Below, in pieces: positions 19,697-50,695 of a stretch of DNA of 64,000 nucleotides. Both the position numbers and the translations under genes were made by a program. Positions within the stretch are counted from its first letter, which is position 1; every line of letters begins with the position of its first letter. Origin of the DNA: Rhodocaloribacter litoris (GTDB lineage: Bacteria; Bacteroidota; Rhodothermia; Rhodothermales; ISCAR-4553); NCBI RefSeq assembly GCF_011682235.2, contig NZ_CP076718.1, positions 4,309,095-4,373,094 on the forward strand, read 5' to 3'. Below the pieces are notes generated by a model, which was given only the letters and a program-made list of their open reading frames with translations, was not told where the DNA came from and ran no database searches.

Positions 19697-19987
19697 ATGG
19701 CGGAAGATTATGGAATAGCCCTGGGCATGGTCGAGACGCGCGGGCTCGTCGGGGCCATCGAGGCGGCCGACGCGATGGTCAAGGCGGCGCGGGTGCGGCT
19801 CATCGGGAAGGAAAAGATCGGTGGCGGGTACGTCACCGTGATGGTGCGGGGAGATGTGGGGGCCGTGAAGGCGGCGACCGATGCCGGGGCGCATGCCGCC
19901 GAGCGGGTCGGCGAGCTGGTGTCGGTGCACGTCATTCCGCGGCCTCACAGCGACGTCGAGATGATCCTGCCGCGCGGCAACGAATAG
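19697..19987 (+). CDS. bacterial microcompartment shell protein, hexamer type (BMC-H)
   Basis: A 96-residue protein covering a single BMC domain (Pfam BMC; CcmK/PduA/EutM family). It matches the canonical opening [20 protein letters not shown] and has the pore loop KIGGG followed by [19 protein letters not shown] and [10 protein letters not shown]. Six copies should form a flat hexagonal tile of a protein shell. Length and residues are intact, so it is likely functional. No shell pentamer, BMC-T or signature enzyme gene lies in the window; the only partner is the second BMC gene at 20162. Confidence 0.93.
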
Positions 19988-20161: not shown

Positions 20162-20656
20162 ATGGCAGATCAAGGAGAAACGGCGCTGGGCATGATCGAG
20201 ACGCGTGGGCTCGTGGCGGCCATCGAGGCGGCCGACGCGATGCTCAAGGCGGCCGACGTGCGCCTGGTCGCCCTCGAGTTGACCGTGGCGGCCCTGATGA
20301 CCGCCCACGTCGAAGGGGAAGTGGCCGCCGTGCAGGCTGCCGTCGAGGCCGGCCGCCGGGCCGCCGAGCGGGTCGGCGAGGTGGTCTCCGTCCACGTCAT
20401 CCCACGCCCGGATCCTGCCGTCCGGGCCATGCAACGCCGCGAGCACACGCCGCCGCCCGCCGCGTCGCCGCCTGCCCCGTCCACCGGAGAGGCGGCCAGC
20501 TCCGGGGAGCCGGACCTGGCCGGGCGGACCGTCCGGGAACTGCGGGCCCTGGCTCGCCAGACACCGAACTATCCCCTGCAGGGGCGGGCCATCGCCCGGG
20601 CCACCAAGGCCGAACTGCTCCGGCATTTCCGCCAGCTGGGCGCATCCAACCGTTGA
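20162..20656 (+). CDS. BMC shell protein with C-terminal SAP/Rho_N-like extension
   Basis: A 164-residue protein. Residues 1-90 are a BMC domain closely parallel to the protein at 19697 ([30 protein letters not shown]). Its pore loop differs: the KIGGG stretch is replaced by ELTVAAL, without glycines. A Pro/Ala/Ser linker (about 100-120) leads to a 42-residue helical module ([17 protein letters not shown]...[19 protein letters not shown]) that resembles the helix-extension-helix of SAP, LEM or Rho N-terminal domains. Such modules bind nucleic acid or short peptides. It may be a minor shell tile that tethers cargo or DNA; this is inference. Confidence 0.85.
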
Positions 20657-20677: not shown

Positions 20678-21685
20678 GTGGCGTCACCGCAACGCTCATC
20701 CGCCGGCACGTTGGTCCTTGCCCGTCTGCGTGGCCTGTTTTCGCGCAGTCGTTCGGATCGTGCGGTGCCCTACGAACCGCAGAACCGCGGCCTCGTCATC
20801 ACGGTGTGCATCTTCACGGCAACCCTGCTCTGGTTGATCTTCACCATGCAGGCCGTTCACACCGTCTCGCTGTCGTTCCCGACGGAGATCCGCAACCTGC
20901 CGCCGGACGAAGCCCTGGTCGCGCTCCCGCCGCGCACGGTGCGCGTTCAGGTGAAAGGAGAAGGCATCCAGCTGCTCCGGCTCTATTATAACCCCCCCAC
21001 GGTGCCGATCGACGCCGGCGCCGGTGAGATCAACTTCGACGGCGTGGTGACCGAACTGGCCGGCGGCGTACAGGTCGAAGGGGTGTTTCCGCGGACCTTC
21101 GTCGTGCGCAAGGAGGAGCGCACGTCCAGGACCGTACCCATCCACGCCCGCGTCGAGGTGCGCACCCCGCCGGCGTTCGAATTGCTCGGTCCCGTTCGGC
21201 TGCGGCCGGATTCGGTGGCGGTCTCCGGAGCCGTTTCGGTCCTGGAGAACCTGCACTTCTGGCCCACGGTGCACCGGGTCTTCGAAAACGTGCGGGATAC
21301 GCTCCGCACGACGGTGCCCCTGGCCGACACGCTCGCGGGCCTGGTTCTCCGGGAGTTCGACGCGGTCGAGGTGCTGGCGGTGGTGGAAGAATTCACCGAG
21401 GCCGTGCGGGAGATTCGCGTGCTGGTGCCCGGGGCACCCCTGGGCCAGGAGTATGTCCAGCTCGCTCCCCCGACCATCACGGTGCGGTACCGCGTGCCCC
21501 TCAGCCAGTACGACGCCGCCCAGCGGGCCGAAGACTTTTTTGCCACCGTCTCTTACGACGAGATCCGGGCAGACACCACCGGCCGCGTCCGCCCCCGCCT
21601 CCATACCCCGGCCAACCTCGCGCTGCGCGACGTCGATTATTTTCCCCGGACCCTCCGGTATTTCAACGTGCTGCTGGAGCGTTGA
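20678..21685 (+). CDS. YbbR-domain (CdaR-like) membrane-anchored protein
   Basis: A 335-residue protein with a short cytosolic N-terminus, one membrane helix (about residues 38-58, GLVITVCIFTATLLWLIFTM), and a periplasmic part of tandem YbbR-like beta repeats. Repeat boundaries are visible near LPPRTVRVQVKGEG, RTVPIHARVEV and REIRVLVPGAP. In Firmicutes the homologue regulates diadenylate cyclase; in Bacteroidota the role is unclear. The start is a GTG at 20678. It lies 21 bases after the second shell gene and could share its transcript. No cyclase gene is near. Confidence 0.75.
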   Translation: MASPQRSSAGTLVLARLRGLFSRSRSDRAVPYEPQNRGLVITVCIFTATLLWLIFTMQAVHTVSLSFPTEIRNLPPDEALVALPPRTVRVQVKGEGIQLLRLYYNPPTVPIDAGAGEINFDGVVTELAGGVQVEGVFPRTFVVRKEERTSRTVPIHARVEVRTPPAFELLGPVRLRPDSVAVSGAVSVLENLHFWPTVHRVFENVRDTLRTTVPLADTLAGLVLREFDAVEVLAVVEEFTEAVREIRVLVPGAPLGQEYVQLAPPTITVRYRVPLSQYDAAQRAEDFFATVSYDEIRADTTGRVRPRLHTPANLALRDVDYFPRTLRYFNVLLER

Positions 21686-21705: not shown

Positions 21706-21912
21706 TATAGCATTGGTCAATGCTATTGAAGGCGTCGTTGTGCAGCGCGATGTAGCCGCACCCTTCACGGGTGCGCACCTGGCGCCACAGAAGAGCCCGG
21801 GCTGACGGGACGCGCAACGCGTCCCGGGACGCGCAACGCGTCCAGATCCGCGGCTACACGTGGGCCGTTCGTAAGGGCAGCCATGCCTTCAATAACCATG
21901 ACCTCTGCTATA
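21706..21912. repeat. 207-bp inverted-repeat element (MITE/REP-like)
   Basis: The two ends are inverted copies: TATAGC (21706-21711) with GCTATA (21907-21912), TATTGAAGGC (21724-21733) with GCCTTCAATA (21885-21894), and TGTAGCCGC (21751-21759) with GCGGCTACA (21850-21858). The first two pairs sit at the same distance from each end. The left end also holds the perfect palindrome ATAGCATTG-GT-CAATGCTAT (21707-21726). Internal hairpins occur at 21758-21774 (GCACCC/GGGTGC) and within the tandem repeat at 21807. No coding capacity is seen. It nearly fills the gap between the YbbR and CBS genes and looks like a non-autonomous mobile or REP-type repeat. Confidence 0.7.
21807..21844 (+). repeat. two tandem 19-bp palindromic units
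   Basis: GGGACGCGCAACGCGTCC occurs at 21807-21824 and 21826-21843, a period of 19. Each unit is a hairpin (GACGCG-CAA-CGCGTC). They lie near the centre of the inverted-repeat element. Two copies without spacers do not make a CRISPR array. Confidence 0.8.
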
Positions 21913-49096: not shown

Positions 49097-50695
49097 ATGG
49101 ATATGTTTAACCGGAATCGGTTGGAACCCGGCGGCACAATCTTTGAAACAACCTTTCCCGCTCGCCATACCGCTGTCCGGCGCAGCCCTTCTTTCCCGCA
49201 TACGCGTTCTCGTGTTTCCTCTGTGTCCCGAAAGACCGAGCTCATAGTCCTGTTGCTTTCGGATGCGCTGGCCATCACGCTGGCGGACCTGTTCTACTAC
49301 CTGGGCCGGTTCCGCTGGATGTGGTTCGGCGAGCCGGCCCTCTTCCCGGATACGCAGCCGCTCTACTTTTTCCTCTGGAATGCGGTGCTGGCGGTCTTCT
49401 GGGTGGTGCTTTTCCTCTTCTTCGGCATGTACCGGGAGCGGTACGCGGCCAGCCGCTTCGACGAGATCGTCTCGCTCGGCAAGATCATCACCGTGGGGGT
49501 GCTGGTGCTGATCTTTGCCGTCTACATCGATGCGTTGCAACCGGGGACGAGCCGGCAGGCGATCTTTTTCTACTGGGGGGCGATGCTCGGCTTCGTGGCC
49601 ACGGGACGCATCGGCGTGCGGTCCGTGCAGAAGGCGTTGATCCTGCGGGGCCACGGCACGCACCGAACCCTGATCGTCGGGTGGAGCGACCATGTGGAGA
49701 AGATCTACGAGGAGGTGGCCCGCTACCCGGAGGCGGGGCTCGACGTGGTCGGGGCCATCCGCCTCCGGCGCGATGACGATCCGCCGGAAGCCGAGGGGGC
49801 CTACCCGGAAGCCGGGGGCGACGGAGCCCCGGCGGTCGTCGGGGGGGTGGCGGTGCATGCCCCGGCTGCCCGGGCCTGGACCATCGAGGACCTGCCCCGG
49901 CTGATCGACGAGCTGGGGGTGCAGGATGTCCTCATCGCTCTGGGCTCGAACGACCACGCGCCGCTGATGGAGGTGTTGCGCCTCTGTGACGGGAAGCCGG
50001 TGACCCTCAAGCTCGTGCCCGACTTCTACACCATCATCGGGGGCATGGCCCGTACCGAGCACATGTACGGCCTTCCGCTCATCGAGGTGTTGCCCGAGCC
50101 GATTCAGCCGTGGGAGCAGAGCACGAAGCGCCTCATCGACGTGCTGGTGGCGACGGTGGTGCTCCTGGCGGGCCTGCCGCTGTGGGTGCTCCTCGGCGTC
50201 CTCATCCGCCTGACCTCGCCCGGGCCGGCCATCTACCGGCAGCAACGGGTCGGGCAGCACGGCCGCGTTTTCACCATGTACAAGTTCCGCACCATGCGGC
50301 ACGACGCCGAAGCCGAAACCGGCCCCGTCTGGGCGCGCGAGAACGACCCCCGCTATACTCCCCTGGGCCGGTGGTTGCGCAAGACCCGTCTCGACGAGGT
50401 GCCGCAGTTCTGGAACGTCCTCAAAGGCGACATGAGCCTCGTCGGTCCCCGCCCGGAACGCCCCTACTTCGTGGAAAAACTGGCCGACGAGATCCCGCTC
50501 TATCGTCGCCGGCATCGTGTCAAGCCCGGCATCACCGGCTGGGCCCAGGTCAAGTGGAAATACGACGAGAGCCTCGAAGACGTGCGGCAAAAGGTCAAGT
50601 ACGATCTGTTCTACATCGAGAACATGAGCCTGCGGATGGATTTCAAGATCCTGTTCCGCACCCTCCGCACCGCCCTGCTCGGCAAGGGGCGATGA
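49097..50695 (+). CDS. polyprenyl-phosphate sugar phosphotransferase (WbaP/WcaJ-like)
   Basis: A 532-residue initiating transferase. Four N-terminal helices, a CoA-binding-like middle domain (about 190-310), then one helix and the catalytic bacterial sugar transferase domain: [65 protein letters not shown] and [17 protein letters not shown]. It places the first sugar phosphate on undecaprenyl phosphate, supplying acceptors for enzymes such as those at 14425-18044. ATGs at 49097 and 49103 are both possible starts. Confidence 0.92.

Follow-up and report, generated by a model that had tools for sequence, protein, structure and literature searches.

RUP, a repeat of Streptococcus pneumoniae, is a short, non-coding element of 107 bp that inserts at TA and has terminal inverted repeats (TIRs) like those of an IS630-family insertion sequence (IS), IS630-Spn1 (PMC2229807). 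The Correia (or NEMIS) elements of Neisseria have 24-bp TIRs, TA ends, a target duplication and size classes that result from an optional internal segment (PMC2229807), and they have been listed among IS630-derived MITEs (PMC2817692). BOX elements of Streptococcus consist of fixed end modules with a middle module in variable number, and range from 67 to 637 bp (PMC3049150). REPINs and BIMEs are dimers of GTAG-tagged palindromes and form tandem arrays (PMC3116915, PMC3733652).

The element reported here was found in a 64,000-nucleotide stretch of the Rhodocaloribacter litoris genome (hereafter the window, to which positions refer unless a genome coordinate, G000 for this host, is given). It is very probably a non-autonomous MITE of the IS630/Tc1-mariner type, with a captured interior of GTAG-tagged hairpins and a putative helper of the type of IS-C, an IS described below. 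Its likeness to RUP (a short non-coding element, IS630-like TIRs, TA insertion) and to Correia elements (TIRs, TA ends, target duplication, size classes) is one of architecture only. For RUP, a pneumococcal IS has been proposed as helper and no functional motif has been reported in the interior, whereas the present element contains one to five GTAG-hairpin pairs and has a helper candidate only in another genome. Correia elements differ from it in sequence, and their internal segment carries an IHF site where the present element has a pair of palindromes that is found outside it as well. As in BOX, a variable middle lies between fixed ends, but the sequence and the IS partner are different. To our knowledge, the middle module of BOX is not a GTAG-tagged palindrome pair. 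The sequence-only reading had named no family for the element, which is true as far as searched, and our data allow it to be regarded as a new family of IS630-type MITEs with a REPIN-like cargo.

The inverted repeats on which that reading was based are real and far beyond chance, since 27 of the 35 positions (77%) of the 35-nt arms are complementary and the maximum in 20,000 shuffles was 20 of 35. All three inverted matches are present: TATAGC at 21706-21711 with GCTATA at 21907-21912, TTGAAGGC at 21726-21733 with GCCTTCAA at 21885-21892 (each 20 nt inward from its own end), and GTAGCCGC at 21752-21759 with GCGGCTAC at 21850-21857, the first two being equidistant from the ends as described. 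The extent of 207 bp had to be revised. The TA flanks are shared across copies, so the mobile element proper is the 203-bp segment at 21708-21910 (plus strand, TAGCA...TGCTA), with edges set by the comparison of copies, and the 207-bp version holds both copies of a 2-bp TA target duplication, at 21706-21707 and, from the flank comparison of copies, at 21911-21912. With this duplication included, the left TIR, TATAGCATTGGTCAATGCTATTGAAGGC, occupies 21706-21733 on the plus strand and agrees with the ends of IS-C; the right TIR, which reads TATAGCAGAGGTCATGGTTATTGAAGGC on the minus strand, occupies 21885-21912 and is delimited by the inverted matches, the register of the copies and the IS-C ends. 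The intergenic position was borne out: the element lies between convergent genes that end at 21685 (plus strand, a 335-aa frame without Pfam match) and 21988 (minus strand, a CBS-domain gene). Two bacterial microcompartment shell-protein genes (PF00936) are located just upstream of it, at 19697-19987 and 20162-20656 on the plus strand.

BLAST of the 4.50-Mb, single-contig host genome returned at least 59 matching pieces at at least 40 loci, and a 91-bp deletion derivative detected by its end pattern occupies a further one. The element is thus present at at least 41 loci, and the single-copy outcome that would have spoken against mobility was not seen. Copies range from 91 to 522 bp, contain no transposase gene and, over most aligned stretches, share 71-94% identity with the window copy; most measure about 185 bp and carry a single palindrome, which we consider the basic form. 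Placed in register, they read TAGCG...CGCTA, with both ends conserved and with outer arms common to dispersed copies right up to the TA. The check for target duplications gave TA/TA outside the element in 26 of 34 two-ended copies and AA/AA or GA/GA in two more, and base composition further out, compared among copies, revealed no duplication beyond 2 bp. The MITE reading therefore holds, on the basis of TA insertion of the IS630 type, TIRs and dispersed copies. This assignment rests on tested features, and from them we infer mobility itself.

Indications of empty sites come from the surroundings of three copies. Copy L009 lies inside a Uma2-family frame (LALEAESDT before the element, KHEFWHGEIVAMAG after it); with the element removed and one TA kept, the frame is continuous and Pfam Uma2 spans the junction (E=1.8e-6), which points to an empty site reconstructed from the occupied copy rather than an allelic one from a close strain. 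For copies L005 and L049, the TA used as target belongs to short tandem TACGCACTACGAAA repeats, whose unit allows the unbroken site to be deduced. At the window locus, the sister genus has the same two genes with a transporter-like frame between them and is uninformative as an empty site.

A search of 60 related genomes from the order yielded a single clear copy (L031), located in G008, which belongs to another family; two weak matches in this set (L032 and L033) lie within coding sequence and look like chance. Plasmids gave no match to the element. A strict TIR pattern, TATAGCGNNGGTCNNNGNTATTGA, was applied to the GTDB contigs and to 394 genomes of the phylum; outside the host and the G008 copy, its matches were not surrounded by any element structure and appear fortuitous. 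Other TATAGCNNNGGTC matches in the host genome, including one at 50345-50357 of the window within a coding frame, were also taken as chance. It is worth noting that L010 and L026 in the host and L031 in G008 are each a MITE inside a larger compound element with the ends TTGACAGGGGTAGG.ATTCA ... TGAATACCTACCC.TGTCAA, and that the compound element of L010 is flanked by a duplication of 9 bp, CCGGTACCC.

The sequence-only reading had called for a transposase with TATAGC ends like those of the element. Such a gene exists in a related genome, but a search for IS630 domains found no intact IS with the element's ends in the host genome. An IS630 domain search later identified IS-C, which the strict TIR pattern was too strict to catch. 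IS-C is an IS630-family IS of 1042 bp, with seven full-length copies in G008 (five of them identical), TA flanks and a transposase encoded in two overlapping frames, one with HTH_32 and one with DDE_3. Its ends, TATAGCGTAGGTCAATAATGTTGAGG and TATAGCGTAGGTCATCGCGGTTGATG, and the family ends of the element, TATAGCGTTGGTCCATGCTATTGAAGG and TATAGCGGAGGTCATGGTTATTGAGGG, have the same tips and the same spacing: the pattern TATAGCG..GGTC.......TTGA stands at identical offsets in both ends of each, the left TIR of the window copy departing from it by a single difference (A instead of G at position 7). Across 99 genomes of the order, this pattern was counted 32 times in the host, 14 in G008, 2 in G001 and once in G007, that is in only 2 of the 97 genomes besides the host and G008, and a reversed-pattern control gave zero matches in the same 99. 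In G001, which belongs to the sister genus and is the one further genome of the host's family that was analysed, a relative of IS-C has an end of the same kind, TATAGCGTAGGTCA. Only about 15 end positions are common to the element and IS-C and their interiors are unrelated, so simple loss of the interior of IS-C does not account for the element; from the ends and the shared TA insertion, IS-C is nevertheless its likely parent. Since the host is without an intact IS carrying these ends, the helper had to be inferred from an IS in a different family of the order, and the MITE is probably stranded in this host without a helper of its own.

Two other short elements in G001, L157 (G001:C5:25784) and L160 (G001:C207:1103), have ends of the form TATAGCG..GGTCA..G...TTGATACC and unrelated interiors; they may represent additional MITE families of this IS group. 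In IS-A, a resident IS of the host (L078-L082), as in IS-C (L112), the coding sequence of the transposase is divided between two frames that overlap, with an A-rich run at the split (CGAAAAAAAAGACC for IS-A), which suggests programmed frameshifting in both.

The host has two IS630-type ISs, IS-A (1053 bp, five copies that are 99.9-100% identical) and IS-B (seven copies, most of them nearly identical to each other). Neither was retained as parent: the ends of IS-A, TATAGCGCTAC, match those of the element only through TATAGCG, and the ends of IS-B do not match them at all. A role of IS-A as present helper needs to be weighed separately, for the MITE could still be mobilised in the host by this resident IS and not by an absent IS-C-like helper. 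IS-A is of the IS630 type, produces TA duplications in the same genome, shares TATAGCG with the element at the tips, and its DNA is 66% identical to that of IS-C over about 700 bp. However, the ends diverge past TATAGCG (CTACKCAG versus ..GGTC.......TTGA), and the near identity of the IS-A copies contrasts with the 6-29% by which most element copies differ from the window copy. This difference in divergence indicates that IS-A and the element have not spread together recently, and mobilisation by IS-A seems quite unlikely. Spread of the element looks older than that of IS-A and IS-B, since the copies of IS-A and most of those of IS-B are nearly identical. In one case (G000:1710660-1711724; L004, L079), the terminal TA of a MITE copy has received an insertion of IS-A, and a right end resembling that of the MITE follows beyond the IS.

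In its interior, each standard copy contains a head-to-head pair of GTAG-tagged hairpins, GTAGCCGCACCCTTCACGGGTGC and an opposite-strand GTAGCCGC, the latter followed by either of two stems, GGACGCG-TTG-CGCGTCC or GGGCTTTAGCCC. In the window copy, the first hairpin is at 21752-21774 (plus strand), has a core that is near-invariant in aligned copies and is also found free elsewhere in the genome; the second, GTAGCCGCGGATCTGGACGCGTTGCGCGTCCCG, is at 21825-21857 on the minus strand. The duplicated 19-bp palindrome singled out at the outset, CGGGACGCGCAACGCGTCC, is indeed there, at 21806-21824 and again at 21825-21843, but it is not typical. Its first copy is extra in the window copy and in L002, L053 and L054, where it represents a local tandem duplication, and is missing from the basic form; the place of the second is occupied in some copies by another hairpin, GGGCTAAAGCCC. 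The pair as a whole is tandemly repeated one to five times within the element, the five-unit maximum being reached at G000:2318092-2318621 with a period of about 89 bp. At about ten other host loci, some of which hold arrays, the pair is free: BLAST recognises no arms around it, and its stem is GGGCT-AAGCCC in every case. On visual inspection, L062 and L067 may have kept arms as worn remnants, so the free pairs need not all be independent. Free tandem arrays outside any MITE are located at G000:1110804-1111032 (L068), 1872407-1872628 (L066) and 1211013-1211283 (L061). A survey of 80 genomes of the order detected the pair nowhere but in the host and in the copy carried by G008. An exact search of IMG/VR found no match to the first hairpin, and two viral contigs (L179 and L180) each have one occurrence of the second, CTAC tag included.

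By its GTAG tag and head-to-head dimer form, the interior can be classed as REPIN/BIME-like (PMC2817692, PMC3116915, PMC3733652), so that the REP-type reading first offered beside the MITE applies to this part. Taken as the sole explanation, it would make the element a REP/BIME repeat spread by a RAYT (Y1, HUH) transposase, with the outer arms as a longer palindrome. The two GTAG-tagged hairpins with their BIME-like tandem arrays and the free copies of the pair agree with this, as does the description of GTAG-tagged repeats together with their RAYTs (PMC2817692, PMC3733652). However, Y1_Tnp (PF01797) had no match in the host genome while controls were positive, no RAYT-type gene being detected, and here the dimer lies within a DDE-type MITE. 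Moreover, conserved outer TIRs common to dispersed copies right to the TA, and a 2-bp TA duplication, are foreign to RAYTs; this duplication and the IS-C ends largely refute such an explanation, which is highly improbable. That selection maintains the element as a structured RNA (riboswitch, attenuator or sRNA) can practically be dismissed: the window copy is intergenic and folds well as DNA and RNA (z about -6; RNA fold z=-5.9), but no Rfam family exceeded its gathering score (best sroE, E=0.24, 17 bits versus 51), only 2 of 49 predicted pairs were doubly changed among 13 aligned copies with an unfavourable covariation term (+1.4), contrary to what a covarying RNA, named beforehand as evidence against a mobile element, would give, and a rough frame test showed mixed neighbour-gene orientation (8 tandem-opposite, 4 tandem-same, 6 convergent, 5 divergent).

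For the IS630-type MITE with a captured interior, the following course can be proposed. The putative helper, an IS-C-type DDE transposase whose gene lies outside the element, would bind the 24-28-bp TIRs (TAGCG..GGTC.......TTGA..) and cut the element out for insertion at a TA, with duplication of that TA. Spread in the host would have taken place while an IS of this type was present, the matching helper being now gone. The head-to-head hairpin pair would have been captured by the MITE and would then have grown in tandem inside it, from one to five units, probably by slippage or unequal recombination; no host function is assigned to the element. A more speculative extension, which we hold to be unlikely but worth stating, is that a REPIN-like pair whose own RAYT was lost persists, and is multiplied, inside a DDE-type MITE, and would so have passed from HUH-style single-strand spread to TA cut-and-paste and then to tandem amplification within its carrier.

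IS630-type MITEs are already known, and according to a 2007 review few of those in bacteria have an identified partner IS (PMC2229807); the element described here has a candidate partner IS in a sister lineage. Its cargo of GTAG hairpins, which also occur free in a host without detected RAYT, offers a case for how REP-like repeats may persist without a transposase of their own. GTAG repeats have been listed in Proteobacteria, Cyanobacteria, Chloroflexi and PVC bacteria (PMC3733652), a list of carriers that the lineage of this host may extend.
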